From NCBI GenBank assembly GCA_900319405.1, contig ONOH01000016.1:1-42740 (forward strand): 42,740 nt of DNA. Reading direction: 5' to 3'. Shown one piece after another: positions 1,267-18,591 of the stretch. This DNA is from an uncultured Bacteroidales bacterium. GTDB taxonomy: Bacteria > Bacteroidota > Bacteroidia > Bacteroidales > UBA932. The notes under the pieces were generated by a model. The model did not search any database, was not told the origin of the DNA, and saw only the letters and a program-made list of their open reading frames with translations. Within the stretch, counting starts at the first letter, position 1; each line of letters starts with the position of its first letter. The position numbers were made by a program, and so were the translations under genes.

Positions 1267-2767
1267 ACGTTTATGCACAGGGCTGCTGGCACTTGCCGCA
1301 GCCCTTTCTTGCAAGCCTGTCACCTACGACGTCGTTGTGGTGGGGGGCGGGGCCGGCGGAACCACGGCGGCGATTGAGGCTGCACGCAACGGAGCCAGCG
1401 TCCTGGTCATTGAAGAATCACCCTGGCTGGGCGGAATGCTCACCAGTGCCGGAGTCAGCGCCATCGACGGGAATTATCGGCTCCGGGGAGGCCTGTTCGG
1501 AGAATTCACCGACTCCCTGGCAGCCCGTTACGGCGGATACGAAGCCCTGAAGTCGGGCTGGGTGTCCAACATCCTCTTCAATCCCGCCGTGGGAGCGGAA
1601 ATCCTCTTCAATATGGCAGTCAAAGCCGGCGTACACATCCGCAGCGAAAAGCGGGTACAAGAGATATCTCCCCTTCGCCGGGGCGGGTGGAGAATCGATC
1701 TGGCCGACGGAATGCGCTTCAACGCCCGCCTGCTCATCGACGGCACGGAGCTGGGAGACATCGCCGCCCGGGTAGGTGCCGAGGAACTGAAAGACCGCGT
1801 ATCGGCCCAGGACCTGACCTATGTGGCCATCGTCAAGTTTTACGACCACGAAGTGCCCATAGAAAAGCCGGAAGGCTACGATGTCGAAAACTATCGAAAC
1901 TGCTGTGACAATCCCCTGGCCGATAACATCGGGGGCAAGAATCCCTATGGCCAGCAGCTTTGGAGCACGGAAATGATGCTCTCTTACGGGCGCCTGCCGG
2001 ACGGCAAGATCATGCTCAACTGGCCGATGTGCGCCAACGACTACTTCGCCGAATACCTGGACATGGATGCCGGGGAGCGCCGGGAGGTGGTTGAAAAGGC
2101 CAAACAGCACACCCTGGGCTATCTCTATTTCCTCCAGAACGAACTGGGATACAGGAACCTGGGCATCGCCGACGACGTTTTCCCCACCCCGGACGGTCTC
2201 CCCTTCTTCCCCTACTGGAGGGAAGCCCGGCGCATCGCCGGCCGCGACACGATGACCGTGGAGGCGGCAAGGCATCCCTACGATTATGACCTCTATACCC
2301 GCGCCGTGGCCGTCGGGGACTACCCCGTGGACCACCATCACCACCAGAATCCCCGAAGGGAAGAACTGAGCCACCTGTGGTTTGGAAAAATTCCCTCCTT
2401 CAGCGTTCCCCTGGGCGTTCTGATTCCCGTGAAAGTACCGGACTTCCTGGTGGCCGACAAAGCCATCTCCACCTCCTGGGAAATGAACGGGAGTACGCGC
2501 CTGCAGCCCGTAGTGATGGGACTGGGACAGGCCGCCGGCGCCCTTGCGGCCCTCGCCGCCAGAAGCGGACACCAGCCCTCCGTAGTATCCGCCTCCGAGG
2601 TGCAGGCCATCCTTCTGGACCACGGCTGCTACCTCCTCCCCTTCCTGGACCTGGAACCCTCGGATCCGGGCTTTCGCGAGCTGCAGGAAAAAGGCGTCCG
2701 GGGAGAAGTGAAAGGGATAGGCCGCAGCGTGGGCTGGTCCAACGAAACCTGGGTCAACCTGCCTTGA
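1259..2767 (+). CDS. FAD-dependent oxidoreductase lipoprotein (PF12831-like)
   Basis: The 502-residue product begins with a lipoprotein signal (hydrophobic 9-17, lipobox ALSC, C18) and then directly the Rossmann FAD site VVVGGGAGGTTAAIEAA with the acidic ribose-binding end VLVIEE. The C-terminal FAD-contacting segment (STSWEMNGSTRLQPVVMGLG) is also present, followed by an alanine-rich helix. A run of four histidines (DYPVDHHHHQ) lies around residue 390. The start at 1259 was chosen because it gives the lipobox; it overlaps the ligase stop by 8 bases, and longer frames upstream only read through ligase sequence. This family is often found near carbohydrate loci of Bacteroidota, but its substrate is not known to me. 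Its 3' end overlaps the convergent metallophosphoesterase by 14 bases. Membrane-anchored, probably periplasmic or cell-surface; FAD loading before or after export is unresolved, since no twin-arginine motif is seen. Confidence 0.85.
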   Translation: MNKRLCTGLLALAAALSCKPVTYDVVVVGGGAGGTTAAIEAARNGASVLVIEESPWLGGMLTSAGVSAIDGNYRLRGGLFGEFTDSLAARYGGYEALKSGWVSNILFNPAVGAEILFNMAVKAGVHIRSEKRVQEISPLRRGGWRIDLADGMRFNARLLIDGTELGDIAARVGAEELKDRVSAQDLTYVAIVKFYDHEVPIEKPEGYDVENYRNCCDNPLADNIGGKNPYGQQLWSTEMMLSYGRLPDGKIMLNWPMCANDYFAEYLDMDAGERREVVEKAKQHTLGYLYFLQNELGYRNLGIADDVFPTPDGLPFFPYWREARRIAGRDTMTVEAARHPYDYDLYTRAVAVGDYPVDHHHHQNPRREELSHLWFGKIPSFSVPLGVLIPVKVPDFLVADKAISTSWEMNGSTRLQPVVMGLGQAAGALAALAARSGHQPSVVSASEVQAILLDHGCYLLPFLDLEPSDPGFRELQEKGVRGEVKGIGRSVGWSNETWVNLP

Positions 2768-3824
2768 CGATGCTGTTGGCGTGCAGATAGAGCGGCTGCT
2801 GGATTTCTCCTCCTTGCAGACGTACACAGGTTTCAAAGCCGGGAACGCCCTCCTTGAACGTAAACAGACGGCAGCCGGAGACCTTGTCTTCGCTCACGCC
2901 GCTTCGGCCCAGATGGTTATAGACCGTGTCACAGCCGCTGAAACGGCCGTAGATATAGAAGATCTGGCCGTAGTTGAGCACGTAGTCGCAGTCGTGGTCG
3001 TGGCCCGTAACAATGGCCTCCACGTCCTGCCGTTCCCGGAACTGGGCGCACAGGCCGCTGTTCAGGCGGGAAGGGCAAGGCGGTTCACAGTTGTTTCCCA
3101 CCAGCGGCGCACCCGCCTCCAGTCCCTCTTCCAATTCCCGCAGCGGGATATGGAAAAAGGCCAGCGAGGGTACGGGAGCACCTCCGTTTTCGGAAGCAAA
3201 CTTCTCACTGTGAGCACGATACCAGCCTATCTGGCTGTGGCGGATGTAATCGTAACAATGAATCTCCTCCTCCCCTTTCAGGATTACGGCATCCATGGAG
3301 TCGAAAAGATAGAAAATGCGCTCGACACCCTGGGAGCCCGAAAGGGTAATCACATCATTGGAACTGCCGTACACGCCTTCCTTGGGAGGAAGGTTCACAC
3401 AGCCGGGCAGGCTGCGAATCATCGAAAACATTTCTTCCCGCGTAGAACCGAACTGTGAGTCGTGGTTCCCCAGGGCCACGGCCCAGGGAATACCGCTTTG
3501 AGCCAGGGGCATCAGGATATCCCGGGCACTGTCCAGATCCGGCTTCCCGAAGAGGATGTCTCCGGTGTGGATCACCAGGTCCGGTTTCACGGTTTCCAGC
3601 GCTTCCGTCACACAGTCCAGTGCCCGCTGCGAGCGGGGATCCCCGGCAATGTAATGGGTATCCGTGAACTGCATCAGGGTAAAGCGGCCGTCCGGGCGGA
3701 AGGAAAGATTCCGGGACACCAGAAGGTCCGGTTTCTTTCCTCCCCTGCCCAGGCCACAGGCCGGTGCAAGCGCCGCCGCACCCGTCAGAAAAGCCGCATC
3801 TTTGAGAAAGGATCTTCTTTTCAC
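2754..3824 (-). CDS. Calcineurin-like metallophosphoesterase, Tat-type lipoprotein
   Basis: The 356-residue protein carries the full set of two-metal phosphoesterase motifs: D55-x-H57 (FTDTHY), GD at 88-89, GNHD at 119-122, H225 (FFHIPL) and GHDHD at 274-278. The family hydrolyses phosphomono- or diesters; the substrate is unknown here. The N-terminus has a twin-arginine motif (RRSFLK) followed by a short hydrophobic stretch and a lipobox ending at C23, so a folded, metal-loaded lipoprotein exported by Tat is likely. The start codon is GTG at 3824, only 3 bases after the stop of the BACON gene and the only start possible since that stop is in frame. It is the last gene of the SusCD operon. 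A phosphatase at the end of such an operon could remove phosphate substituents from the imported compound; this is inference. Confidence 0.88.
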   Translation of the reverse strand: MKRRSFLKDAAFLTGAAALAPACGLGRGGKKPDLLVSRNLSFRPDGRFTLMQFTDTHYIAGDPRSQRALDCVTEALETVKPDLVIHTGDILFGKPDLDSARDILMPLAQSGIPWAVALGNHDSQFGSTREEMFSMIRSLPGCVNLPPKEGVYGSSNDVITLSGSQGVERIFYLFDSMDAVILKGEEEIHCYDYIRHSQIGWYRAHSEKFASENGGAPVPSLAFFHIPLRELEEGLEAGAPLVGNNCEPPCPSRLNSGLCAQFRERQDVEAIVTGHDHDCDYVLNYGQIFYIYGRFSGCDTVYNHLGRSGVSEDKVSGCRLFTFKEGVPGFETCVRLQGGEIQQPLYLHANSIVKAG

Positions 3825-3827
3825 GGC

Positions 3828-5720
3828 CTACAGCTGTAATTCAAACTTGCAATACAGGGAGGCGGACACGTCCACTACATAAGCGACCGGCACCCCTCCT
3901 TCTTCCACAACTTCGATATCGGTATTGTCTCCGTATTGCCAGTTCTCCGGATTGGCATAGAAGGTCTCGGTGAGCGCGAGGACCGGATGGGACGGATCGT
4001 CAATGTTGAACACCCACAGCTTGGGGTCGATTCCCCAGCCGGAGAAGGCGAAGTAACTCATCCCAATGGTAGCCAAATAGCGGTGTCCTTCATAAGTGAA
4101 GACGTCTCCGGTATTGATGGCCGCCTCCCAGGTAAAACCGGTCGTAAAGGCGATCGACCAATCGGCCGATTCTCCCAGCGCTGCGCTGTAGTGGAGGTTG
4201 TAGTCTCCAACATAACCCGCAAAATAGAAGCCTGTGCTGACCGATGTTCCCGCACCAATCGTAACGCAGTGATAGGAATCCCAGCAGTCTCCACCCGAAG
4301 TGGGAGAAGTGGCGAAGGCCGTAGGAGCGTCCGTGGTGGCTCCGCCGCGGATTTCCCAAGTCACGCTGGCAGTACCACCTCCGGCAGCTCCGGAAGTCAT
4401 GCTGAGCAGGCCGTCTCCTTTGGCATTTCCGTTCACCTGGGCATTGTCCAGACCATAACCATAGAAACCGCAGGGGTAAGTCAGGATTGGTTCTCCGAAA
4501 TTGGCGGAAAGGAAATCCTCCGGAGACATCACATATACTTTCAGCGGAATCTGCTGTTCCGGAATCAAGGCCCAGGTTTCCGTACTGATAGGGAAGTTTC
4601 CGCCAGTCGTGACAATCACGTTGCCGGCTTCGTCGTTGGTGACGCCGGAGACATTCTCTACAGGCGAATCCATTACGGAGGCTTCGGTTCCGTCCGCCCT
4701 GTTCATCAGATGGAAGCCGGGCGTAATGGCTCCCGGAGAATAAAGCACGAAATAGTCTCCGGCAACCGCGGTGGTAACACGGGTGCTCTGGGGGAAGATG
4801 CCCCAGTAGAAATCCATCTGCCACAGTTTCACGGCCTGCGCATTTCCCTTCTGCTTGACCAGGATCATCGCGCCGTAATCGCCGTAGTCTTCTTCACCCA
4901 AAAAGCAGCCCATATAGATGTACTCGCTGCGGGCCGCTGCCGGGTTCTCGTCTATGACCACGGTCACCACGTTCCCTTCTTTGCTGACATGGATCCAGTC
5001 GGCGCCGGGGGCGTCGGCCGTAAAGTCCATATTGGTGACGGCGGTGAAGGTGTAGGTCAGACCTTCCTTCGGGGCCGACAGGGTTCCCCACGGTCCCACG
5101 CCCAGTTCGTCCACCAAATCAAAAGCCGGCTCAAAAGCACCCTGAGTCACGGTAATAGTCTGTTCCAGGTCCTGTCCCTTGACCGACAAATGCCCTGTAC
5201 GGGCTTCGCGTCCGGGATTCTGCTGAATCTCCACGGTGAATTTCTCATCGACAAGCGCCTTGCTTGTAACTACGGTCATCCAATCCACGTCGGAGGCAAA
5301 CGACAGTGCAACATTGGTCTTCAACGGGAAGTCATAAGAGCCGCCCGTGTAGGGGACCGTAACGCTGTCCTGATCAATGATGATACCGTCCATCTGGGAC
5401 TGCGTCACCTTGATTATCTTTTCCAGACTTCCGGCCGTCACGCTCACGAATGCTTCCCGGGAAGAATAGTCGGTGTTGGGCAGAAGGGCGAGTTTGACAA
5501 CGGCGTCTCCGCTGCCGCTGGCTTTGGATGCGACCAGCCATTTTTCAGAGACGGCCACTTTCCAGGCAGCGTCAGAAGAAATGGAAAACTGAGCGACCGA
5601 GGCTTTGGATGAAACCTGGATTTCAGTTGCCCCTACATCCAGTTTGGAGGCTTCAGGCTGCACCTTGTTGCAAGCAAGCAAGGCACCGGCAAAAAGCAGA
5701 ATGGCAAAAAGTCGTTTCAT
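3828..5720 (-). CDS. BACON-domain surface lipoprotein with C-terminal domain shared with the DUF5018 neighbour
   Basis: The 630-residue protein has a lipoprotein signal (lipobox LLAC, C17) and three tandem BACON beta-sandwich domains, about residues 25-107, 110-193 and 205-290, each ending in a strand of the form IxVTQ or ILVKQ. The remaining ~335 residues resemble the C-terminal half of the DUF5018 protein encoded at 7102-8787: both contain a DEAGN turn after a repeated-strand segment and a WGI-x-P-x-L segment near the end, suggesting a propeller-like fold. BACON domains in Bacteroidota are thought to bind carbohydrate or mucin or to act as spacers that lift a protein off the outer membrane. 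The gene lies 14 bases after the GHL10-like gene and 3 bases before the phosphoesterase, inside the SusCD operon, so a role as a surface glycan-binding protein is inferred. No enzyme motif was seen. Confidence 0.85.
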   Translation of the reverse strand: MKRLFAILLFAGALLACNKVQPEASKLDVGATEIQVSSKASVAQFSISSDAAWKVAVSEKWLVASKASGSGDAVVKLALLPNTDYSSREAFVSVTAGSLEKIIKVTQSQMDGIIIDQDSVTVPYTGGSYDFPLKTNVALSFASDVDWMTVVTSKALVDEKFTVEIQQNPGREARTGHLSVKGQDLEQTITVTQGAFEPAFDLVDELGVGPWGTLSAPKEGLTYTFTAVTNMDFTADAPGADWIHVSKEGNVVTVVIDENPAAARSEYIYMGCFLGEEDYGDYGAMILVKQKGNAQAVKLWQMDFYWGIFPQSTRVTTAVAGDYFVLYSPGAITPGFHLMNRADGTEASVMDSPVENVSGVTNDEAGNVIVTTGGNFPISTETWALIPEQQIPLKVYVMSPEDFLSANFGEPILTYPCGFYGYGLDNAQVNGNAKGDGLLSMTSGAAGGGTASVTWEIRGGATTDAPTAFATSPTSGGDCWDSYHCVTIGAGTSVSTGFYFAGYVGDYNLHYSAALGESADWSIAFTTGFTWEAAINTGDVFTYEGHRYLATIGMSYFAFSGWGIDPKLWVFNIDDPSHPVLALTETFYANPENWQYGDNTDIEVVEEGGVPVAYVVDVSASLYCKFELQL

Positions 5721-5734
5721 ATCGTGTGTAAGTT

Positions 5735-7105
5735 TTATTTTACGGTGTTCAGATAAGCGTCTATCCCGCTTTTCAGGCTAGACCAGTAATCATACATCTT
5801 GATGTGGCAGAGGTCAAAGATAAAGAGCCCGTCAGAATTGTTGATACAGGTGGAAACGATTTCGGGCATCAAGGCGCCCTGTCCACCTTTTTCAAATCCG
5901 CTTCCATTGCCGATATCCGGACCGGCCGCATAAGGGACAGCACCGGCAAGCCGCTTGCTCCCCAGCTTGCAGAATCCCTCCATCGTCCACTCCCCGGAGC
6001 CGTGGATGCCGGACGTACCGGCATACGCGCCCAGGAAGATATAGTCCAGATGGTCGGCGAAACCGGCAGCCTGGTAGGCGGCATCGGCCCAGCTGTATTC
6101 CAGCTTGCAGTTGTAGTCGGGACTTGCCCAGTTCACGCCGGATTCGTAATACGTGGAATACCAGGCTCCCACATATACGCCGAATCTGATCTTGTCGTTT
6201 ACGCTATGCACTTTCTGTGCCGCCTTCTCCACCAGGTCGTGGATGGTCTTTGCCCGGAAAGTGAGCCACTGGCGCTGGGTGTTGTTAAGAAAAGAGGGAA
6301 GGGAGTTGGCGCCCGGAGAGAAAACATCGTCTGGCCACTTGGAAAGCTTCTGGTTGATGTATTTCTCGAAGGCGCTGCGGCTTGCAGGGGAAAAGTCGCT
6401 CTGAAGGCCGCTGTCATCGTAACGGCAACGGTCCAGGACAATGCCGTCCAGTTCCTTGTAAGCAGCCAGCTCCCCTACCAGGGTGAGCACAAACTCCTGA
6501 ACCGCTGGATGGGCAGGACTCAGGAAACGGGGACCGTAATCCGCCACATCCACGCTGTTGGTAAGTCCGGACGGAAGATTCTGTACCGAACACCAGTCTT
6601 TCTTGGATTCATCGGAATAAACCATCCCTTCCGTTCCCAGACCGTAAGGGCAAAGATAACCGCCCACCAGGGTGTTCATCCCGGCATGTACCTTGAGTCC
6701 GGCCGCGTGCCCCTCTTCGATGAACGCCTGTAGGTAGTCGAAATCGGCCGTCCGAACAGCCCAGCCGTAGGTCCCGCCCTTCCACCGGTCAATCCGCTTG
6801 AGCGCCGGGGCTACCGATGAGGCAAACAGGACGTCTCCGGTAGTGGGACGCACGTCCACGACAATATCCGTAAATCCCGTCTGGGCAATCCGCTGGCAAT
6901 CTTTCCGGATGTTCTCACGGCTGTTTCCATAATCATCAAAATTGGCAGCCGCATCTATCCATACATAGCGGGGCTTGGCCTGCTTTTCGGCCTGGGGCTC
7001 CTTCCCCTCTTCCTCTTTCCATTCCGGATTCCAGGGGTGGTCTTCCCGGGGCTGACAGGACAGCAGAGGAAAGATGAGCAGCAGTATGAGTATCTTATCT
7101 ATCAT
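5735..7105 (-). CDS. Glycoside-hydrolase-like family 10 (GHL10, PF02638-type) lipoprotein
   Basis: The 456-residue lipoprotein (signal 1-16, lipobox LLSC, C17) has the features of the GHL10 TIM-barrel family: YVWIDAAANF near the start, GFTDIVVDVRPTTGDVLF, an early barrel strand GLKVHAGMNTLVGGY, the LDGIVLDRCRYDD strand with acidic residues, and IRFGVYVGAWYSTYYESGVNW. The family is predicted to hydrolyse glycosidic bonds but few members have an established substrate. A charged spacer (residues 22-43) separates the lipid anchor from the barrel. The start codon overlaps the DUF5018 stop by 4 bases (ATGA), implying translational coupling. In this operon it is one of only two proteins that look like candidate glycan-cleaving enzymes, the other being the DUF4434 protein across the divergent promoter. 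Substrate unknown. Confidence 0.85.
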   Translation of the reverse strand: MIDKILILLLIFPLLSCQPREDHPWNPEWKEEEGKEPQAEKQAKPRYVWIDAAANFDDYGNSRENIRKDCQRIAQTGFTDIVVDVRPTTGDVLFASSVAPALKRIDRWKGGTYGWAVRTADFDYLQAFIEEGHAAGLKVHAGMNTLVGGYLCPYGLGTEGMVYSDESKKDWCSVQNLPSGLTNSVDVADYGPRFLSPAHPAVQEFVLTLVGELAAYKELDGIVLDRCRYDDSGLQSDFSPASRSAFEKYINQKLSKWPDDVFSPGANSLPSFLNNTQRQWLTFRAKTIHDLVEKAAQKVHSVNDKIRFGVYVGAWYSTYYESGVNWASPDYNCKLEYSWADAAYQAAGFADHLDYIFLGAYAGTSGIHGSGEWTMEGFCKLGSKRLAGAVPYAAGPDIGNGSGFEKGGQGALMPEIVSTCINNSDGLFIFDLCHIKMYDYWSSLKSGIDAYLNTVK

Positions 7106-8787
7106 CGTTTGATGCAGTCTGCGCTGTAGGCGCCGATTACCTGTGAGTTATGGTCGTAATAATAGATGTACAGCATAAAGCCGTCGGCCGAAGGGGCGAT
7201 AAGCACGTCACCGGCCGCTACCGCATAGGATCCGGTCTGGTACCAGGCGATATTGGTATTGGACAGGGCCAGGGACGATGTACTTTCAAAGTCTCCACTA
7301 ACGGCAGCCGGGTTGGTGATGTCGTACAGATACAGCCTGGGGCCGATTCCCCACGCCGGGAAATGACTCACGATGAAGCCGGCCAGGAAGACGGCTTTGT
7401 TGAACTGCTTGGAATCGAAGCAATTGTAATTCCATCCCCAGCTGTTGCCGTTTCCGGTGCTGGCTGTAGCGCCGGCAGAGCCGTCGGCCTTCACCCAGGT
7501 GAGCACGTTGGGATCGTAGCACGCGCCGAACCAGCCGTCGGAAGGATTCAGGGAAGCGGCGCACATACTGCTCACGTTCACGGGAGCGCTGCCCCATACC
7601 AGGCCGGAAGCACTGGCATCCACAAGTTGCTCGGACACCACGGAACCGCCTTCCACCTTGAATACCCAGAACTTGCTGGAGGTCGTTATTCCGTCAATGC
7701 CTTCCAGGGTGGCGACAATCTGGGCCTCGCCCTTGATGTCACCCATCACTTTCACCTTGTAACCCATAGGAAGGTCGGAGGAGTTGGTGAAGGAGAAGAA
7801 TTCCACAGGGGCTTCCTCCACGGAGGAAGATGTCCAGATGGTAAAGGTTTCACCGCCCGCAGCGTGGTTGCACAGCAGGAGGTTTCCAGCCTCGTCGGAA
7901 GTGATGCCGGCTACGACGGCAGTCCCGGTATTGAGATTGCCCGTCTTTACGCCGGTGAGCTTGTTCAGATAGACCGGAGCACCGTCTCCGGTGGAAACGA
8001 CCAGGAAGTTGCCGCTGACAGCCATAGAAATAAAGGCCAGATCCGTATAAGGCGGCAAGCCAGCGTTGGAAACCGGATCGAAGTTGAACAGCTGCTTTAC
8101 GCTGGATCCGTTGAAGCCATAATCAATCTTCTCGGGGACTTCCTTCACCACCTTGTATTCCGTCTTGTCCACACCGTTGGCGGCCGTGACCGTAAAGCTG
8201 ATGCCGTTGTTGTAGTCGTGCGGCAAGGAAGGGTCGGGAGAGATGGTCGCGTGGGCGGAAATGGAAACCACGGCTACGGCAGCCGAAAGGTCATCCGCAC
8301 TCACGAGCGAAATCTTGTGCTGCGCCTCGTCGATGATACCGCTGATGGGAGGATCCACGAGGTCGAAAGTGAGAAGCTGCGCCTTGGAAGAGTGGACCCG
8401 GTCACCCGTAATCACGATTTTTCGGGAGTTGCCGGAGGCGTCCGTATAGGTAAATTCGTTTTCTTCCGTCAGGTCCAGAACGCTCAGACCGGGCTCAATC
8501 TTGCAATTGGGCTGCAGTTCGGCGTTCACACGGGCCTTGATCATATAAATCTCGGTCTCATCGAAAGAGCTTTCGGGGAAATAATAGGGTACCGGTATCA
8601 CGAAACGGGATTGTTCCGGATCTCCGATGTTCAGTTTGGCCATTTCCTGGTTCTCGAAAGGACCGAAGGTGAAATAAGCCGTCAGGGAGGTGATACCCTG
8701 CCGCTCGGCGGTAGGCTTCACATATTCGGGCTGGTGACAGGCTGTTGCTGCCAGGGCCAGGGACAATATGATGAGGAGTCTTTTCAT
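7102..8787 (-). CDS. DUF5018-type SusCD-associated surface lipoprotein
   Basis: The 561-residue protein starts with a lipoprotein signal (lipobox ATAC, C17), followed by Ig-like repeats of the DUF5018 type (about residues 20-220), where strand pairs such as ISLVSADDLSAAVAVVSISA and ISFTVTAANGVDKTEYKVV recur. From about residue 240 it changes to a segment shared with the BACON neighbour (DEAGN turn, WGIGPRL near the C-terminus). The start at 8787 was preferred to an in-frame ATG at 8808 because it begins the signal peptide exactly and lies 4 bases after the SusD stop; the longer form would add seven polar residues and overlap SusD. The position directly after SusD is where surface glycan-binding proteins of these operons usually sit, so ligand binding at the cell surface is the likely role. 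No catalytic motif seen. Confidence 0.85.
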   Translation of the reverse strand: MKRLLIILSLALAATACHQPEYVKPTAERQGITSLTAYFTFGPFENQEMAKLNIGDPEQSRFVIPVPYYFPESSFDETEIYMIKARVNAELQPNCKIEPGLSVLDLTEENEFTYTDASGNSRKIVITGDRVHSSKAQLLTFDLVDPPISGIIDEAQHKISLVSADDLSAAVAVVSISAHATISPDPSLPHDYNNGISFTVTAANGVDKTEYKVVKEVPEKIDYGFNGSSVKQLFNFDPVSNAGLPPYTDLAFISMAVSGNFLVVSTGDGAPVYLNKLTGVKTGNLNTGTAVVAGITSDEAGNLLLCNHAAGGETFTIWTSSSVEEAPVEFFSFTNSSDLPMGYKVKVMGDIKGEAQIVATLEGIDGITTSSKFWVFKVEGGSVVSEQLVDASASGLVWGSAPVNVSSMCAASLNPSDGWFGACYDPNVLTWVKADGSAGATASTGNGNSWGWNYNCFDSKQFNKAVFLAGFIVSHFPAWGIGPRLYLYDITNPAAVSGDFESTSSLALSNTNIAWYQTGSYAVAAGDVLIAPSADGFMLYIYYYDHNSQVIGAYSADCIKR

Positions 8788-8791
8788 AGGT

Positions 8792-10453: not shown

Positions 10454-10465
10454 GATGCTGTCTGT

Positions 10466-13400
10466 TTAGAAGGTTATTGTGACGCCGCCCATCAGGTAAC
10501 GCTGCTGCGGATAGTAGCCATTGTTCACGCCCGGGGATTCCGGGTCGATTCCCTTGGGAAGACCGTCAATGGTGAAGAGGTTGTTTCCCTCCGCGAACAG
10601 GCGCAGGGTCTCCACGCCAAAACGGCGGGTAAAGGTCTTGGGAAGGGTGTAACCCAACTGTGCAGTCTTCAGACGGACATACTTGCCATCTTTCCACCAG
10701 AAACTGGAGGCAAGACCGTTGTCGCCGCCGTGACCGGTAGTGGCAAGCGTAAGGCGGGGCCATTCTCCATTGGGGTTTTCGATACTGTAGGCACCCTCCA
10801 CCAAGAACAGCGGAGAGTTGCCTCCCTCCTTGAAGGTCTGGGTCCAGATGGTGTTGTCGTCGTACCCGTTGTAATAGGTACCGGTCATAGACACCTGGAA
10901 CAGGGCGCCTCCGGTGAACTGAAGGTTCAGATCAAAACCGTTCCAGCCCATATTCACATTAAGGCCGTAAGTAAGTTCGGGCCGATTGGACTTGCCGAAG
11001 ATGCCACGGTCATCCCAGTCGATTTTACCGTCGCCGTTGAGGTCCTTGTACTTGATATCTCCCACGTTGGGGCGGGTGCCATACCAGGCGCTGTTGTCAA
11101 TCTCGTCCTCGGAGCGATACAGGCCTTCGGCCAGCCAGCCCCAGTGGGCGCCATAGGTGGTTCCGGTACGCTTCTGCCACTCGGGAACGTTGGGCTGGTC
11201 TTGGTACACCAGCCAGCGGGTCTTGGACCAGGTCAGGGTAGCTCCCAGTTCATAGTAGAACGGTTTTCCGCCCAGGTTGAAGCGGTTCTTATGGGTAAGG
11301 AGAATATCGATACCCTTTGCATCGATGGCGTTTTTGTTCACATAGGTGGGATAATAGCCTCCCATCGAGGAGGGCTTGCCACCGCTGTTACCGGTGAGGA
11401 TATCGTAGGTATAGTTGTAGAAAAGGTCAATCTCGCCGCCCAGCAGGCCGTTCCACAGGGAAAAGTCGGCGCCGATATTGTAGGACAGGGTCTTTTCCCA
11501 GGTAAGGTCACGGTTGGGAATGCCCACCGTATAATAGGACGGAGAAGCGCCCGTCCCGTTATAGACCACCTTTCCGCCTTCGGCATACTGGCTCAGGAAC
11601 ATAAAGGCGCTCACGTTGTCACTGCCCAGCAGGCCCACACTGGCCCTCAGTTTGAGGTCTTCCAGCGCGCCAAAGCCTTTCATAAAGTCCTCCTGTGAGA
11701 TTCGCCAGCCCAGGGAAGCCGAAGGGAAGAAACCCCAGCGGGTCTTCGTCATTCCGGCGAATTTATAGGAACCGTCCACGCGGCCGGTGAATTCGGCCAG
11801 ATACTTTTCATCGTAATTGTAACGGATACGGCCGACATAACCGGCACTGCGGGAAGCGTTGCTGGAGCCGATGACGGGACTGGCCGTGGGGGTGCCGTTG
11901 TTCAGCTCCGGCAAAAGGGCAAACGGCAGATTCTTCACGTAGGCACTCAGGTTGTTGGTCTTATAGTCGCGGAGCTCGGCCAGAAGGAGTCCCTCCACAT
12001 TGTGTTTGCCGAAAGTGCCGCTATAGGAGATGCTTGCCTGTCCGGTAAGGGACTCGGAGTACCAGGAGCCCTCGCCCAGCTTCACGCCGTCTGCCGCACC
12101 GTTCACATCCACCAGCGGGCCGCTCCAGTTCCAACTGCCGTCGGCATTGCGGGAAGGAACCACCACGTAGTACGGGGTATCCAGGTTCTTGTTGTAGGAA
12201 TTGGAATTGTCATATGCTCCGCTCACTTTCAGTTGCAGACCCTTCACCCAGGGAATATCCCACGCGATGGAAGCATTGGCCTGGGCGCTGAAACTCTTGG
12301 TATTCTTGCTGCCGGACTGGTACAGGGCAGCCAGCGGACTGTACGGATAACCCTGGTTGTTGGCATAGGTACCGGTGTAATAATCCCCCATCTTCTCCGG
12401 GAGGAAAGGGAGCATCCCGATGGTCTGGTGGGCGACGGAAAAATACCCCACCTCATAGGAACCGCCGTCAGAACCGCCGGAGGCGAAACGCGGGGTGTTG
12501 CGTCGTCCCACCACGCCGCTCAAACCGGCCGTGAAAGTGAGATACTGCCCAATCTTGGATTCGATATTGGCACGGAGATTATACCGGCTATAGTCGTAAC
12601 CCTTGATATTTCCGTTCTGTCCCATATAACCGGCACCGACAAAATAGCGGACTTTTTCATTTCCGCCCTGTACGGTGACATTGTGCTTGTGGGTGATACC
12701 GGTTCCGAATACTTTCTTTATATAGTTCACATTGTCCCAGCCGTCAGAAGGATCTCCGTTGGTCATCGCCGCCACATTCTCCCTTGAAAAATAAGGAACA
12801 TACTCGGCGGCACTGGCAATGGCGCCATTGGCCAGCTGGTCCATCATCTGGGCCATGTTGTAGTAGTATGCATACTGTGGACCATCCATGAACTCGGGGA
12901 AGTTGGCATTCATGGAAGCGCCGACAGAGCCGTTGTAGGTAATGTGCACGTCTCCGCGATTACCCTTCTTTGTAGTGATGATGATCACACCGCCGGCGGC
13001 TTTGAGACCGTAAACAGCGGCCGATGCACCGTCTTTCAGGACGGACACGCTCTCAATGTCGGAGGGGTCGATGTCGTTGATATTATCCACAGGGAAACCG
13101 TCCACCACATAGGAGACGCCGTAAACGGAACCACGGATGCGCAGCGAGGCCTGATCCAGGCCCGGTTCACCGGATTCCTGTACGGAAGAGATGCCCGGCA
13201 GTTTACCGGCCAGCACCTGCGAAACATTGGTGGAAGGCGATTTGAGAAGCTCATCTCCCTTGATGGCAGACACGGCTGCCGTCAGGGTTTCCTTCCTCGC
13301 TGTACCGTAACCGACCACTACGACATCTTCCAGATACAGGGTATCTTCGTTCATAGTGATGTTCACGCGGGATTCGCCCTTCCAAGGATGGAAGACAGTG

Positions 13401-13639
13401 GTCATTCCCAGGGAGGCAAATTCCAGGACGGAGCCTTGAGGTACCCGCAGGTTCCAGGAACCGTCCGAACCGGTAATGGTGCCGGTGGATGTTCCCTGGA
13501 TCATCACGGTAACCCCCGCTAGGGCGTTCCCCTCGGAATCTGTTACCCTACCCTGTACGTTTGTCTGTGCAAACGCTATTCCCTGCGCCAGTATTCCTCC
13601 GGCCAGGAGAAGGGTCAAGAAACGGAAAATGGGTTTCAT
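10466..13639 (-). CDS. SusC/RagA-family TonB-dependent outer-membrane transporter
   Basis: The 1057-residue protein starts with a Sec signal peptide (cleavage after AFA, about residue 24), then a carboxypeptidase-D-like repeat domain (VQGRVTDSEGNALAGVTVMI), a TonB-box region (EDVVVVGYGTARKETLTAAVS), a plug domain with the SusC signature (RIRGSVYGVSYVVDGFPVDN, DPSDIESVSVLKDGASAAVYG), and a 22-strand barrel ending in a terminal phenylalanine (GGVTITF). No STN signalling domain precedes the CarboxypepD-like domain, so it is a pure transporter and not coupled to an anti-sigma factor. It follows the epimerase gene after 33 bases with no terminator between them, so it is probably in the same transcript, and SusD follows after 12 bases. 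It imports the oligomer captured by SusD using TonB energy; the substrate is unknown. Confidence 0.97.
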   Translation of the reverse strand: MKPIFRFLTLLLAGGILAQGIAFAQTNVQGRVTDSEGNALAGVTVMIQGTSTGTITGSDGSWNLRVPQGSVLEFASLGMTTVFHPWKGESRVNITMNEDTLYLEDVVVVGYGTARKETLTAAVSAIKGDELLKSPSTNVSQVLAGKLPGISSVQESGEPGLDQASLRIRGSVYGVSYVVDGFPVDNINDIDPSDIESVSVLKDGASAAVYGLKAAGGVIIITTKKGNRGDVHITYNGSVGASMNANFPEFMDGPQYAYYYNMAQMMDQLANGAIASAAEYVPYFSRENVAAMTNGDPSDGWDNVNYIKKVFGTGITHKHNVTVQGGNEKVRYFVGAGYMGQNGNIKGYDYSRYNLRANIESKIGQYLTFTAGLSGVVGRRNTPRFASGGSDGGSYEVGYFSVAHQTIGMLPFLPEKMGDYYTGTYANNQGYPYSPLAALYQSGSKNTKSFSAQANASIAWDIPWVKGLQLKVSGAYDNSNSYNKNLDTPYYVVVPSRNADGSWNWSGPLVDVNGAADGVKLGEGSWYSESLTGQASISYSGTFGKHNVEGLLLAELRDYKTNNLSAYVKNLPFALLPELNNGTPTASPVIGSSNASRSAGYVGRIRYNYDEKYLAEFTGRVDGSYKFAGMTKTRWGFFPSASLGWRISQEDFMKGFGALEDLKLRASVGLLGSDNVSAFMFLSQYAEGGKVVYNGTGASPSYYTVGIPNRDLTWEKTLSYNIGADFSLWNGLLGGEIDLFYNYTYDILTGNSGGKPSSMGGYYPTYVNKNAIDAKGIDILLTHKNRFNLGGKPFYYELGATLTWSKTRWLVYQDQPNVPEWQKRTGTTYGAHWGWLAEGLYRSEDEIDNSAWYGTRPNVGDIKYKDLNGDGKIDWDDRGIFGKSNRPELTYGLNVNMGWNGFDLNLQFTGGALFQVSMTGTYYNGYDDNTIWTQTFKEGGNSPLFLVEGAYSIENPNGEWPRLTLATTGHGGDNGLASSFWWKDGKYVRLKTAQLGYTLPKTFTRRFGVETLRLFAEGNNLFTIDGLPKGIDPESPGVNNGYYPQQRYLMGGVTITF

Positions 13640-13672
13640 TCTGTTTAGATTAGGAATTATTGTTTATTGTCG

Positions 13673-14872
13673 TTATTTTGCCAGTTCTTCCAGGATGGTA
13701 CCGATCTGATACAGGCCGCGGGGCACGTGGAAGCAGCCCTTCCATTTGCCGCCTTTCAGGGGAAGCAGCACCTCTCCCCTGCGGTTCAGGTAACCGAACC
13801 ATTCGGGATACTCGGGATCCTTGAAGCGGGTCCACAGGTATTCATCCAGCTTCAAGAACCACTCCAGAGCCCTCTCATTTCCGGTGAGCTGATAGCCTTT
13901 GATCATGGCGATGGCGCTTTCGATATGCACCCACCACAGTTTCTGGTCCCACTCGAGTTCCTGGGTAGGATAGCCCTTGCGGTCCATAAAATAGAAGATG
14001 CCGCCGTACTGCCTGTCCCAGCCATAGTCGATGACTCGGAGGGCAATTTCCACACTTTTGTCAATAATGTCCTGCCGATGGAGTCGGATGCCCAGGTTCA
14101 TCATAAACCACAAAGCTTCCAGGTCGTGTCCCGGGTTCACCCGCCGGCCTTCGAAACAATCCACCAGGGTGCCGTCCGGGGCCAGGTTCTCCACCATTAC
14201 GCCAAGATCGGGCTGATAGAAGACATCGAAAACCTCGTGCAGGGCCTCCCGGATAGTTTCCTCCAGGAGGGTTTTGTCCTCAATGATGGGCTCCACTTCC
14301 AGCGCCATATTGCAGATAATCATCGGTAGCGCGAAATCCTTCATCGGGCGGGTGCCGGGAACGGCCTTGCTCCACTTTCCTTTGGGGTTGGAGCGGCGGT
14401 CCAGGATGCGCTGGAACACCTTACGGGCGATATCGGCATAGTGCTCGCTGCCGGTGGCGACGGCCAGTTGGGCAAAAGCCATACACGCAAAGGTATTGGA
14501 AAAAATATTGTACGGGGCGATGATGGGTTTTCCCTCGCGCGTGAGCGAGAAATAAAAGTCGTAATGGCCGTCGTGGCCATACTTTTCCAGAAATTCCGCC
14601 CCCTGCACGGCACAGGCAAGCCAGTCCGGATTCTTCTCCACCTTATTATACAGCATGGCGAACATCCAGACCTCCCTGCCCTGCAGCCAGACGAACTTGT
14701 CGGTATCAAAGACACTGCCGTCCCGGTTCAGGCAGGAGAAATACCCCCCATACTCCAGGTCCTGTGATTTCTGCAGCCAGAAAGGTAAGACACTGTCATA
14801 CAATTCCTTCCGGTATTTTTCTGCCAGGGCGGCAAACGCTTCTTTTCTCATAGTATATAAGGTTTTGGCCAT
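13673..14872 (-). CDS. AGE-family epimerase, resembling N-acylglucosamine 2-epimerase
   Basis: The 399-residue cytoplasmic protein has the (alpha/alpha)6-barrel signatures of the AGE family: KFVWLQGREVWMF (arginine 66), NPGHDLEALWF (H249), KLWWVHIESA (H316) and CFHVPRGLYQ (H382). H249 and H382 correspond to the two catalytic histidines described for N-acylglucosamine 2-epimerases, which interconvert GlcNAc and ManNAc; related members act on cellobiose or mannobiose, so the exact sugar is open. The ATG at 14872 sits about 20 bases below a consensus promoter; an alternative ATG at 14851 would remove only seven residues. It is the first gene of the minus-strand SusCD operon and is transcribed away from the ROK gene, which suggests that the imported compound yields a sugar needing C2 epimerisation. 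No nanA-like lyase or sialidase is seen nearby. Confidence 0.88.
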   Translation of the reverse strand: MAKTLYTMRKEAFAALAEKYRKELYDSVLPFWLQKSQDLEYGGYFSCLNRDGSVFDTDKFVWLQGREVWMFAMLYNKVEKNPDWLACAVQGAEFLEKYGHDGHYDFYFSLTREGKPIIAPYNIFSNTFACMAFAQLAVATGSEHYADIARKVFQRILDRRSNPKGKWSKAVPGTRPMKDFALPMIICNMALEVEPIIEDKTLLEETIREALHEVFDVFYQPDLGVMVENLAPDGTLVDCFEGRRVNPGHDLEALWFMMNLGIRLHRQDIIDKSVEIALRVIDYGWDRQYGGIFYFMDRKGYPTQELEWDQKLWWVHIESAIAMIKGYQLTGNERALEWFLKLDEYLWTRFKDPEYPEWFGYLNRRGEVLLPLKGGKWKGCFHVPRGLYQIGTILEELAK

Positions 14873-14893
14873 TTAGTTCGAATATAGTCTTTA

Positions 14894-14924
14894 CAAATAT
14901 ACAAATATTATTTAAGTATCCAAA
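14894..14924 (-). promoter_or_regulatory. Promoter of the epimerase-susCD operon
   Basis: Read on the minus strand there is TTTG (14924-14921), a 19-base spacer and TATATTTG (14901-14894), an exact match to the Bacteroidota -33/-7 consensus TTTG-N19/20-TAnnTTTG. Transcription would start near 14887, about 15 bases before the epimerase ATG. Its -33 box lies inside a mirrored repeat described separately. Confidence 0.8.
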
Positions 14925-14987
14925 ACTTTATTACGGTTTGTTAATAATTATTGTTTTATTTATGCGGGGCATTATAAAAGTGTTTGG
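14920..14987. promoter_or_regulatory. Candidate ROK operator: mirrored repeat covering both -33 boxes
   Basis: The arms are CCAAAACTTTATTA (14920-14933) and, on the opposite strand, CCAAACACTTTTATAAT (14987-14971). They share CCAAA-(C)-ACTTT with one inserted base. Each arm contains the -33 TTTG box of one of the two divergent promoters, with the centre of symmetry near 14953. Binding of the adjacent ROK regulator at both arms could repress both operons at once. The repeat is seen in the sequence; the operator role is inference, and part of the similarity is simply the shared TTTG box. Confidence 0.4.
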
Positions 14988-15014
14988 ATTTTATGACATA
15001 AATTCGTATTTTTG
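14983..15014 (+). promoter_or_regulatory. Promoter of the ROK-DUF4434-MFS operon
   Basis: TTTG (14983-14986), a 20-base spacer and TATTTTTG (15007-15014) fit the Bacteroidota consensus. The ATG of the ROK gene begins only 6 bases after the -7 box, so the transcript would have almost no leader. Confidence 0.75.
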
Positions 15015-15019
15015 CACTA

Positions 15020-16222
15020 ATGAGTAAGTTTCTGAACGATATCAACGGCCACTACGCCGTAGAAAAAAAAGCCATTCTTTCCCTTTGTGACAAAGGAATG
15101 GCCTACAGTTTGGCAGACCTGGCCAAGGAACTGGGCACCAGCATTCCCAAAATATCCCGCATCGTGGGAGAAATGATGGAAGAAGGCTATCTGGCCGATT
15201 TGGGAAAACAGGAATCGGCCGGCGGGCGCCGCCCCAACATCTACGGCCTCAATCCCAGCGCCGGCTACTTCGTTGGCGTGGACGTGGAATCGGAGACCAT
15301 CGCCATTGCCGTCACCAATTTCCCGGGACAGGTCATCCACTTTGAAGAAAAGATCCCCTTCAGCCTGGGAAACACCGAAGAATCGGCCCTGCAAATGTGT
15401 CGGGTGGTCCTAGAGCGCCTGGAAAAAGCGCACATCGACGCTAACATCATCCGTTCGTACGGGGTCAACCTTACCGGCCGGGTCAACCATCTCACAGGGT
15501 ACAGCTACTCCTACTATATCGGGGAAGAAAAGCCCATCAGAGATATTTTCGAGCAAGGATTCGGAAAGAAAGTGAGCATTGAAAACGACTCCCGGGGAAT
15601 GGCCTACGGAGAGTATATGAGCGGCATTACCGGAGACGCCGGCACCGTTTTGTTCCTCAATGTTGGCTGGGGCCTTGGAATGGGAATAGTCCTGGACGGC
15701 AAGCTCTTTCTCGGGAAATCCGGCTTTTCCGGCGAGGTGGGCCACTTCCCCCTGCTGGACAACCACCAGATATGCCGATGCGGGAAAATCGGCTGCCTGG
15801 AAACCGGGGCTTCCGGACTGGCCCTTCACCGCCTGGTAAAGGAGAAACTCAAGGAAGGGACCCCCTCCATCCTGAGTTCTATCCACGAAAAAGGCCTCGA
15901 AATCACCCTGGACGACATCCTGGATGCCGTGAGCAAGGAGGACATCACCGCCATCGAATGTGTGGAGAGCATCGGCATCACGCTGGGACGGGCCGTGGCC
16001 GGCCTCATCAACATTTTCAACCCCGATATGGTCATCGTAGGCGGCCGGCTCTCGGTTACGGAACGTTACCTGATGCCCCAGCTGAAGATGGCCGTAAACA
16101 AACTATCCCTGAACCTGGTGAACAAAGACACCGTCATCAAGGTTTCGAGACTGGGAGAAAGGGCCGGCGCCATCGGCGCAAGCCTTCTCTCCAAGAGCAG
16201 ACTGTTAAACAACATAGACTGA
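15020..16222 (+). CDS. ROK-family transcriptional regulator
   Basis: The 400-residue protein has an N-terminal winged-helix DNA-binding domain (about 10-80; YSLADLAKELGTSIPKISRI is the helix-turn-helix and GGRRPNIYGLN the wing end) and a C-terminal ROK sugar-kinase fold. In the ROK domain the sugar-site motif EVGH (239-242), the zinc motif C252-x-C-G-x-x-G-C259 and the END aspartate (D190) are present. The N-terminal phosphate-binding loop, normally DxGxT, reads GVDVESETIAIAV and lacks the usual glycines, so sugar phosphorylation is doubtful and a pure sensor-repressor is more likely. It is divergent from the epimerase-susCD operon and heads the DUF4434-MFS operon (7-base gap), so it probably controls both in response to an imported sugar or its epimer. 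The start follows from the promoter position and from the complete winged helix. Confidence 0.9.
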   Translation: MSKFLNDINGHYAVEKKAILSLCDKGMAYSLADLAKELGTSIPKISRIVGEMMEEGYLADLGKQESAGGRRPNIYGLNPSAGYFVGVDVESETIAIAVTNFPGQVIHFEEKIPFSLGNTEESALQMCRVVLERLEKAHIDANIIRSYGVNLTGRVNHLTGYSYSYYIGEEKPIRDIFEQGFGKKVSIENDSRGMAYGEYMSGITGDAGTVLFLNVGWGLGMGIVLDGKLFLGKSGFSGEVGHFPLLDNHQICRCGKIGCLETGASGLALHRLVKEKLKEGTPSILSSIHEKGLEITLDDILDAVSKEDITAIECVESIGITLGRAVAGLINIFNPDMVIVGGRLSVTERYLMPQLKMAVNKLSLNLVNKDTVIKVSRLGERAGAIGASLLSKSRLLNNID

Positions 16223-16229
16223 TAGAATT

Positions 16230-17321
16230 ATGGAAAACAGAAGATCCTTCCTCAAAAAAGGAGCGATGGCGGCCGCTGCGGCCCCCCTGCTGGCATCGGC
16301 CTGCGCCGGCGAGAAAAAAGCCGATAAATACGGCATCGAACTGGACCCGTCCGTAAAATCCAGACTCATCGTGCCGGAAGCCGACGCCCTGCCCATTACC
16401 GGCACCTTTCTGGACGAGATTTCGCACGATATCCCGCACCAGAACTGGGGCGAGGCCGAGTGGGACCGCGATTTCCGCTATATGAAGGCCATCGGCATCG
16501 ATACCGTCATCGACATCCGCTGCGGATACCGGAAGTTCATCACCTACCCCTCCCCCTACCTTCTCAAGAAGGGCTGCTATATGCCCTCGACAGACCTGAT
16601 CGATATGTTCTGCCGGCTGGCACAAAAGTACGATATGAAATTTATGCTGGGCCTGTACGATTCCGGCAAATACTGGGACACCGGCGATATGACTTATGAG
16701 GTGGAAGCCAACAAATTCGTCATCGACGAAGTCTGGGAGCGCTACGGCAGCAAATACAAGAGTTTCGGAGGCTGGTACATCTCGGGAGAGATTTCCCGCG
16801 CCACCAAGGGCGCTATCGAGAGCTTCCGCACCATGGGCCGGCAGTGCAAGGAGATTTCCGGAGGCCTGCCCACCTTCATCTCCCCCTGGATTGACGGAAA
16901 AAAGGCCGTGGACGCCGCCAGTGGACAGCTCACCAAGGAGCAGGCCGTCTCCGTAGAACAACATGAGAGGGAGTGGAACGAGATTTTCGACGGCATCCAC
17001 GAATACGTGGACGCCTGCGCCTTCCAGGACGGGCATATCGACTACGACGAGCTGGACGCCTTCTTCTCGGTGAACAAGAAACTGGCCGACCGTTACGGAA
17101 TGCAGTGCTGGACCAACGCCGAGACCTTCGACCGCGATATGCCCATCCATTTCTTCCCCCTGAAATTCGACAAGCTGCGGATGAAGCTGGAGGCCGCCAA
17201 ACGCTGCGGCTACGACAAGGCCATCACCTTCGAATTCAGCCATTTTATGAGCCCGCAAAGCGCCTATCTGCAGGCCGGCCACCTCTACGACCGCTACAAG
17301 GAATACTTTAACATCCGATAA
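16230..17321 (+). CDS. DUF4434-domain lipoprotein with twin-arginine signal
   Basis: The 363-residue protein begins with RRSFLKK, an alanine-rich hydrophobic stretch and a lipobox-like ASAC (C25), so it looks like a Tat-exported lipoprotein. The rest matches the DUF4434 family, a predicted TIM barrel related to glycoside hydrolases: GTFLDEISHDIPHQNWGEAE at the barrel start, RYMKAIGIDTVIDIR, FMLGLYDSGKYW, GGWYISGEIS, and a late strand with W-T-N-A-E-T-F. The aspartate and glutamate residues on strands (GEIS, NAETF) could be catalytic, but no activity is established for the family as far as I know. It lies between the ROK gene and the sugar transporter (1-base gap to the latter), so it probably acts on the same compound. 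With the GHL10 protein it is a prime candidate for the missing glycan-cleaving enzyme of this locus. Confidence 0.85.
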   Translation: MENRRSFLKKGAMAAAAAPLLASACAGEKKADKYGIELDPSVKSRLIVPEADALPITGTFLDEISHDIPHQNWGEAEWDRDFRYMKAIGIDTVIDIRCGYRKFITYPSPYLLKKGCYMPSTDLIDMFCRLAQKYDMKFMLGLYDSGKYWDTGDMTYEVEANKFVIDEVWERYGSKYKSFGGWYISGEISRATKGAIESFRTMGRQCKEISGGLPTFISPWIDGKKAVDAASGQLTKEQAVSVEQHEREWNEIFDGIHEYVDACAFQDGHIDYDELDAFFSVNKKLADRYGMQCWTNAETFDRDMPIHFFPLKFDKLRMKLEAAKRCGYDKAITFEFSHFMSPQSAYLQAGHLYDRYKEYFNIR

Positions 17322-17322
17322 A

Positions 17323-18591
17323 ATGAGCGGAAAAACCTATTCTCCGGGATACATCGTATTCCTTTCCGCCGTGGCGGCCCTCGGCGGAATCCTCTTCGGC
17401 TACGATACGGCCGTCATTTCAGGCACCACCGACATCGTGAGCGGACAGTTCGGCCTGGGAGAGCTGGCCACCGGCTGGTACGTGGGCTGCGCCCTCATCG
17501 GTTCCATCATCGGCGTCCTCCTTGCCGGTATGCTCAGTGATTTCCTGGGACGCAAAAAGACGATGTTCATCGCGGCGGTTTTGTTCAGCATTTCCGCCAT
17601 CGGCTGCGCGCTGTGCAAGGGATTCACCAGCTTGGTCATCTACCGGATGGTGGGCGGCCTGGGCATCGGCGTGGTCTCCATCGTCTGCCCCATCTACATC
17701 TCCGAGGTGGCGCCGGCCGAAAAGCGTGGAACGCTGGTCTCCCTGTACCAGCTGGCCATCACCCTGGGCTTTCTCCTGGCCTATCTGGCCAACTACCTGA
17801 TCTTGAAGGGGACATCCACCGCCGAATATTGGCGGCCGATGCTGGGAGCCGAGGCCATCCCGGACCTGCTGTTCCTGGCGCTGATCTTCTTCATTCCGGA
17901 AAGCCCACGCTGGCTTGAAGTGCGCGGGCGGCGCAAGGACAACAGCGAAGAATGGAAGGCCCTCAGGGAGCCTGGCATCCTCCTGGCCGTCCTTGTGGGG
18001 TCCTGCATCGCCATCCTGGGCCAGTTTATGGGCGTAAACGCCGTACTTTACTATGGGCCCACCATCTTCAGGGACGCCGGCTTCGAAGACCCGCTCTTCT
18101 CCACCGTACTGGTAGGCGTGGTGAATATGCTCACCACCGTCATCGCCCTCCTGATTATCGACAAGGTGGGCCGCAAGCAGTTGGTCTGGTGGGGCGTAGG
18201 CGGAATGATTTTCTGCCTGCTGATGATCGGGCTCTACTTCCTGCCGACCACCCAACTGCCCACCGGCTTCATGCTCACCTTCTTCCTGCTGTATGTCTTC
18301 TGCACGGCCATCAGCATCAGCGCCGTGGTGTTCGTACTCCTGAGCGAGATGTATCCCAACCGCGTACGCGGCCTCGCGATGTCCATCGCCGGCTTCGCCC
18401 TTTGGGTGGGAACCTACCTCATCGGCCAGCTCACGCCCTGGATGCTCGGGAACCTCACCCCCGCCGGCACCTTCTTCCTCTTCGCCTTTATGTGCCTCCC
18501 CTACCTCTACATTATGTGGAGGTACATACCCGAAACCACCGGAAAAACCCTCGAGGAAATCGAAGAGCACTGGAAACGCTACAACCGGTAG
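17323..18591 (+). CDS. Sugar-porter-family MFS transporter with shortened central loop
   Basis: The 422-residue inner-membrane protein has twelve predicted membrane segments and sugar-porter signatures: DFLGRKK (loop 2-3), RMVGGLGIG, PESPRWL (192-198), GQFMGVNAVLYYGPTIF (TM7, about 233-249), DKVGRK, SEMYPNRVRG and the terminal PETTGKTLEEIEE. Proton symport of a mono- or disaccharide is the family role. Two features are odd. The cytoplasmic loop between TM6 and TM7 is only about 20 residues, where XylE-type porters have about 55, removing most of the intracellular helices. The TM7 sugar-binding motif QQ-x-x-G-x-N reads GQFMGVN, losing the first glutamine. The frame is intact, so these look like real sequence differences and not errors. 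It would move the sugar released in the periplasm by the two candidate hydrolases into the cytoplasm for the epimerase. Confidence 0.9.
   Translation: MSGKTYSPGYIVFLSAVAALGGILFGYDTAVISGTTDIVSGQFGLGELATGWYVGCALIGSIIGVLLAGMLSDFLGRKKTMFIAAVLFSISAIGCALCKGFTSLVIYRMVGGLGIGVVSIVCPIYISEVAPAEKRGTLVSLYQLAITLGFLLAYLANYLILKGTSTAEYWRPMLGAEAIPDLLFLALIFFIPESPRWLEVRGRRKDNSEEWKALREPGILLAVLVGSCIAILGQFMGVNAVLYYGPTIFRDAGFEDPLFSTVLVGVVNMLTTVIALLIIDKVGRKQLVWWGVGGMIFCLLMIGLYFLPTTQLPTGFMLTFFLLYVFCTAISISAVVFVLLSEMYPNRVRGLAMSIAGFALWVGTYLIGQLTPWMLGNLTPAGTFFLFAFMCLPYLYIMWRYIPETTGKTLEEIEEHWKRYNR

Follow-up and report, generated by a model that had tools for sequence, protein, structure and literature searches.

A SusCD-type locus of a Bacteroidales bacterium that may serve the use of an N-acetylhexosamine glycan

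Two divergent operons in a 42,740-nucleotide stretch of DNA from an uncultured Bacteroidales bacterium (contig ONOH01000016.1; here called the window) are best explained as a single system for the use of an N-acetylhexosamine glycan. This glycan would contain ManNAc or give rise to it, and in many relatives it is probably phosphodiester-linked. We put the probability of this reading at roughly 0.6. That the two operons are one recurring system, common to rumen and human-gut relatives, is strongly supported. The likely substrates narrow to the class of N-acetylhexosamine glycans, and beta-mannan is disfavoured. An earlier note on this DNA had proposed a small or decorated glycan of GlcNAc/ManNAc or beta-manno type, and its interpretation as a whole is partly supported.

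The locus and its genes

The locus consists of seven minus-strand and three plus-strand ORFs in two tightly spaced divergent operons, with gaps of -4 to 33 bases within operons by ORF coordinates. These are the ten genes and the layout that the earlier note had described: all ORFs lie where it had put them, and their families are matched, nine by Pfam and the MFS transporter by NCBIfam. An eleventh gene of the system, for an FAD oxidoreductase, lies outside the range covered there and was omitted. The features are the following.

1259-2767, plus strand: FAD-dependent oxidoreductase (PF12831, 276.8 bits vs 27; lipobox-like signal by eye)
2754-3824, minus strand: calcineurin-like metallophosphoesterase (PF00149, 54 bits vs 21.5; RR-type signal with Cys23)
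3828-5720, minus strand: BACON-domain lipoprotein (PF13004, three stretches, 88 bits)
5735-7105, minus strand: GHL10 TIM barrel + DUF4985 lipoprotein (above the PF02638 gathering score, with a barrel fold)
7102-8787, minus strand: DUF5018 lipoprotein (PF16410, 366.3 bits)
8792-10453, minus strand: SusD-like lipoprotein (PF07980, 174.9 bits)
10466-13639, minus strand: SusC-like TonB-dependent transporter (TIGR04056, 882.9 bits vs 368.25)
13673-14872, minus strand: AGE, N-acyl-D-glucosamine 2-epimerase (NF052547, 654.6 bits vs cut-off 600; PDB 6f04, 2gz6)
14927-14947, no strand: palindromic operator candidate TTTATTACGGTTTGTTAATAA, within the divergent promoter
15020-16222, plus strand: ROK protein with N-terminal HTH (PF00480, 175.2 bits)
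16230-17321, plus strand: DUF4434 TIM barrel (PF14488, 279.2 bits vs 30; RR-type signal with Cys25)
17323-18591, plus strand: sugar-porter MFS transporter (TIGR00879, 348.8 bits vs 237.8)

The SusC and SusD genes are adjacent, with 12 bases between them, and thus make up the SusCD pair of a Sus-like PUL. The GHL10 gene overlaps the DUF5018 gene by 4 bases, and the FAD oxidoreductase gene converges on the phosphoesterase gene with a 14-base overlap. Left of the oxidoreductase, positions 1-1266 hold the end of an AMP-ligase-like gene, judged by eye. For the DUF5018 lipoprotein, position 8787 is a likelier start than the first ATG of the ORF. By eye, lipobox-like signals are found in six of the ten proteins (SusD, DUF5018, GHL10, BACON, phosphoesterase and DUF4434, the signals of the last two being RR-type); SusC carries a plain signal, AGE and ROK carry none, and MFS is a membrane protein. 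The DUF5018 lipoprotein is presumed to bind glycan at the surface, and glycan binding is likewise presumed for the BACON lipoprotein. The metallophosphoesterase carries D-x-H, GD, GNHD and GHDH motifs.

None of the nine window proteins scanned scores above the Pfam cut-off of an assigned glycoside hydrolase or lyase family; the co-located assigned enzyme expected of a Sus-like PUL is therefore missing from the window by Pfam. AGE has a sub-threshold match to GH127 (15.4 bits vs 24.9). The claim that the locus has no classical glycan-degrading enzyme thus holds for this window and fails for related loci, which carry NAGPA, GH20 and carbohydrate esterases. The two barrel proteins were also said to fall outside assigned glycoside hydrolase families, and they have no match to any in Pfam.

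Recurrence in related genomes

Of 354 relatives found in a scan with the DUF4434 protein, the loci of the best 80 (75-94% identical) were used. Many titles among these 80 name ruminant stomach samples, and B. faecis is included. Full-length loci (about 21 kb) make up 44 of the best 80. Among these 44, with presence taken as the best match to window proteins, distant SusC paralogues counted in and outer genes cut off by the 10-kb flanks, SusC is found in 37, AGE in 34, SusD and MFS in 31 each, DUF5018 in 29 and ROK in 26. AGE, SusC, SusD and DUF5018 all accompany DUF4434 in 25 of the 44. The other 19 are without at least one of these four; therefore, DUF4434 has other contexts as well. In L023, L038 and others, a GH3 gene (11 cluster 2 loci) or a GH127 gene (12 cluster 1 loci) is present within the 10-kb flank of DUF4434.

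The same association is seen across 179 genomes of the same family, where DUF4434 is patchy (above cut-off in 37) and DUF4985 occurs in 29. DUF4434 is present in all 29 DUF4985 genomes vs 8 of the 150 others (Fisher p 1.7e-26, a value in which kinship of the genomes overstates independence). Of these 29 genomes, 24 have the two on one contig, never more than 13 kb apart, and five have them on separate contigs. AGE is above cut-off in 28 genomes; 26 of them also have DUF4434, and in 20 of these 26 both genes share a contig, all within 17 kb. The contig of L070, L085 and L127 holds MFS-ROK-DUF4434-AGE-phosphoesterase-SusC-SusD-DUF5018-GHL10 on a single strand; its SusC is in two frames. B. faecis carries its window-type DUF4434 (L077) on one contig and its SusCD-GHL10 set (L120) on another, each near a contig end. 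Of 41 genomes from that genus, 9 have DUF4985. The earlier note had treated the seven- and three-gene sets as one system, to be given up if they failed to occur together in related genomes. Such a failure was tested for and not seen: the operons recur together in relatives.

L116 and L117, from the same genus, have AGE-SusC-SusD facing MFS-ROK, with other enzymes (684, 708, 520 and 369 residues) replacing GHL10 and BACON. Could this be a sister version for another glycan?

The two barrel proteins and their fusion partners

GHL10-DUF4985 is the presumed depolymerase and DUF4434 a presumed glycosidase. The nearest folds to the predicted GHL10 model are Cwp19, a peptidoglycan lytic transglycosylase, and a PgaB domain solved with GlcNAc. 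Cwp19 of C. difficile (a GHL10 protein, 5oq2) is 16-17% identical to the window GHL10, which differs in its DUF4985 tail, in being a lipoprotein of a SusCD operon, and in having R226 where Cwp19 has its proposed catalytic Asp196 (profile alignment; D225 falls at Asp195). The residue roles in Cwp19 are those given in an excerpt of PMC5765458. An Asp at the place of Asp196, expected if GHL10 acted as Cwp19 does, is thus missing. D225 and R228 are invariant in 44 GHL10 sequences. The C-terminal glycosidase domain of PgaB (4p7l; 4p7q with GlcNAc) is 14% identical to the window GHL10; PgaB also has a deacetylase domain and serves PNAG export.

In clan GH-A glycosidases, strands beta4 and beta7 each end in a Glu. 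DUF4434 may be of this kind: its E187 and E298 are invariant in 36 sequences and come just after beta4 and beta7 in the model, although E298 borders a low-confidence stretch (301-310).

Fusion proteins in relatives, all of whose domains score above Pfam cut-offs, connect the barrels to other members of the set. FAD_oxidored is fused to GHL10-DUF4985 in L122 (1043 residues), L132 (1082) and L125 (1055), and to a distant DUF4434 domain (138 bits) in L118 (1078). In B. faecis (L120), GHL10-DUF4985 is joined to a MetallophosN/C phosphoesterase in a protein of 889 residues, which strengthens the proposal of the earlier note that the phosphoesterase removes phosphate. Since fused proteins usually act together, the FAD oxidoreductase, both barrels and the phosphoesterase probably share one substrate. 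The fusions to GHL10 or DUF4434 are also why the oxidoreductase is counted in the system. They bring to mind redox-assisted cleavage, in which the FAD oxidoreductase would oxidise a sugar within the N-acetylhexosamine glycan to a keto sugar, the barrels would break the activated bond by elimination or hydrolysis, and the phosphoesterase would remove phosphate, the substrate being a phosphoglycan of other bacteria; we regard this route as quite improbable.

The epimerase and the sugar

AGE of the window is the single AGE match in the whole genome. Beside its NF052547 score it gives 65.9 bits with the cellobiose epimerase model and 26.9 bits with that of mannose isomerase. The epimerase and the fold neighbours of GHL10 agree with the GlcNAc/ManNAc-type sugar foreseen earlier, whereas the low mannose isomerase score disfavours the beta-manno alternative, to which the general DUF4434 fold, near beta-mannosidases, is the sole pointer.

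In Bacteroidetes, an epimerase of this kind converts ManNAc to GlcNAc after sialic-acid lyase, according to a portion of PMC3969230. No neuraminate lyase is found among the window genes by Pfam, and an AGE in a locus that has no lyase suggests a ManNAc-bearing glycan. This argument is weaker in the present genome because a separate nan operon that has no epimerase of its own is present on contig C41 (14727-16820 in L147 and 1038-7386 in L149), with genes for a GDSL/SASA esterase, a lyase-like DHDPS-family protein, a NanM-like Kelch protein, GH20, a BNR sialidase-like protein and MFS. The C41 operon could alone explain AGE. The window shares a SusCD pair, an AGE-type epimerase and MFS with the nan/NanOU sialic-acid system, but lyase, sialidase and NanM are on C41. 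Its SusD reaches 28.2 bits with the NanU model (cut-off 425), well short of what a nan locus would have. Finally, NagA was not found above its curated cut-off in the genome (25.9 bits; genome about 89% complete), yet GlcNAc-6-phosphate would need deacetylation.

Phosphodiester glycosidases in relatives

The loci of relatives hold 62 distinct DUF5018 genes (window excluded, close species counted apart, L135 giving two). In 34 of the 62, DUF5018 is followed in the same direction by NAGPA, a phosphodiester glycosidase (PF09992), and in 23 by GHL10; an FAD oxidoreductase and an unassigned gene follow once each, and three end or turn. Relatives of NAGPA in PDB include N-acetylglucosamine-1-phosphodiester alpha-N-acetylglucosaminidases. 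In the window, GHL10 directly follows DUF5018, not NAGPA as in many relatives, and tblastn with three NAGPA proteins found none in the window (best E 0.057 among the matches listed). A SusC scoring more than 2000 bits to that of the window is found in 8 of the best 80 loci. Because seven of these eight have NAGPA after DUF5018 (the eighth is cut off), NAGPA was probably lost in the lineage of the window. The one NAGPA of the genome, on contig C41, is of another widespread type; some NAGPA is present in 100 of the 179 genomes.

Example loci of relatives add GH20, CE2/SGNH and SASA esterases, MetallophosN/C phosphoesterases, DUF5009 and an HGSNAT-like protein. These extra enzymes are a kit for a modified amino-sugar glycan.

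Regulation

The ROK protein is likely a repressor. Its HTH matches just below the Pfam cut-off (20.8 vs 21.9), and no kinase phosphate motif was seen by eye. It gives 166.3 bits with the NagC model (cut-off 650). The palindrome at 14927-14947 agrees with 13 of 16 positions of the core TTTTTAACN5GTTAAAAA, and 5 of 200 shuffles are equally good. Among relatives with back-to-back AGE and ROK, 30 of 32 score at least 13/16 and two do not, a conservation test that is partly circular, the core having been derived from the same sequences. No regulon for the operator candidate was found outside the locus.

Comparison with B. thetaiotaomicron

BT_0435 of B. thetaiotaomicron (4h41) is 79% identical to the window DUF4434. 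A portion of PMC10434189 gives BT0446-49 as DUF5009, a family 10 glycosylhydrolase, a calcineurin-like phosphoesterase and another family 10 glycosylhydrolase; B. faecis L120 has like content (GHL10, GHL10, GHL10-phosphoesterase, SASA, DUF5009 and NAGPA). B. thetaiotaomicron differs from the window in its split operons, BT0439-0443 and BT0453-0449 (order from locus numbers and B. faecis), and in having BT0438, near BT_0435, which an excerpt of PMC8225759 describes as an active GH89 alpha-N-acetylglucosaminidase. The Bt counterpart, too, thus departs from the earlier picture of a locus lacking classical enzymes. Part of PMC5238430 calls BT_0439 a SusC implicated in the breakdown of host glycans and reports it from supernatants on milk and on galacto-oligosaccharides; a host substrate is therefore favoured in Bt.

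What the locus may do

We prefer the view that the locus uses an N-acetylhexosamine glycan in steps. The SusCD pair with the DUF5018 and BACON lipoproteins would bind and import glycan pieces, and GHL10-DUF4985 would cut the polymer. Phosphate would be removed by the phosphoesterase, in many relatives together with the NAGPA phosphodiester glycosidase. DUF4434 may trim the oligosaccharide, helped by a step that the FAD oxidoreductase would carry out. The MFS porter would import the amino sugar, and AGE would interconvert ManNAc and GlcNAc, the reaction probably running towards GlcNAc. The ROK protein would repress both operons from 14927-14947 until the amino sugar appears. Since the window has no NAGPA, the phosphodiester argument rests on relatives.

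The Bt evidence raises the question of whether the glycan comes from the host, as GlcNAc-capped fragments of mucin, milk or glycosaminoglycan, with AGE serving mainly for ManNAc from the sialic acid that the nan operon releases and phosphate playing no special part. The GH89 enzyme near BT_0435, the role given to the BT_0439 SusC and the nan operon that has no epimerase all speak for it. We nevertheless consider such a host substrate somewhat unlikely: it gives no clear role to NAGPA, the phosphoesterases or the GHL10-phosphoesterase fusion, AGE lies close to DUF4434 on one contig in 20 of the 26 genomes that have both, SusD is far below the NanU cut-off, and ruminant stomach samples are prominent among the best 80 of 354 relatives. 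The linkage unit of wall teichoic acid is ManNAc-GlcNAc-1-phosphate-6-MurNAc, and a polymer of the Gram-positive wall (either this unit plus bare peptidoglycan glycan or a capsule of HexNAc-1-phosphate) could also be the substrate of the locus, NAGPA or the phosphoesterase opening the phosphate, GHL10 cutting and AGE turning ManNAc to GlcNAc. The peptidoglycan-cleaving nearest fold of GHL10, the GlcNAc-1-phosphodiester glycosidases among PDB relatives of NAGPA, the AGE with no sialic-acid lyase in the locus and the O-acetylesterases of relatives fit this, but the window has no NAGPA, Asp196 of Cwp19 is replaced in GHL10, no gene for MurNAc handling stood out among those identified in the loci, and the Bt GH89 points elsewhere; a wall polymer is unlikely.

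That the barrels are binding proteins that have lost catalysis, the locus only capturing oligosaccharides while enzymes elsewhere depolymerise, would agree with the Arg in place of Asp196 and with the lack of an assigned glycosidase in the window by Pfam. Against this stand the invariant pairs of residues in DUF4434 and GHL10 and the fusion of both barrels to enzymes in relatives, and we think it very unlikely.

In closing, assigning the gene set to an N-acetylhexosamine glycan leads to a short list of substrates. If the redox-assisted route were true, the fusions of FAD oxidoreductase with GHL10, of FAD oxidoreductase with DUF4434 and of GHL10 with phosphoesterase would be one-protein forms of an assembly line. 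DUF4434, whose structure is labelled only a putative fucosidase, and GHL10-DUF4985 have no assigned activity and are candidate new glycosidases; their fusions to FAD oxidoreductase and phosphoesterase name the partners for assays of the barrels.
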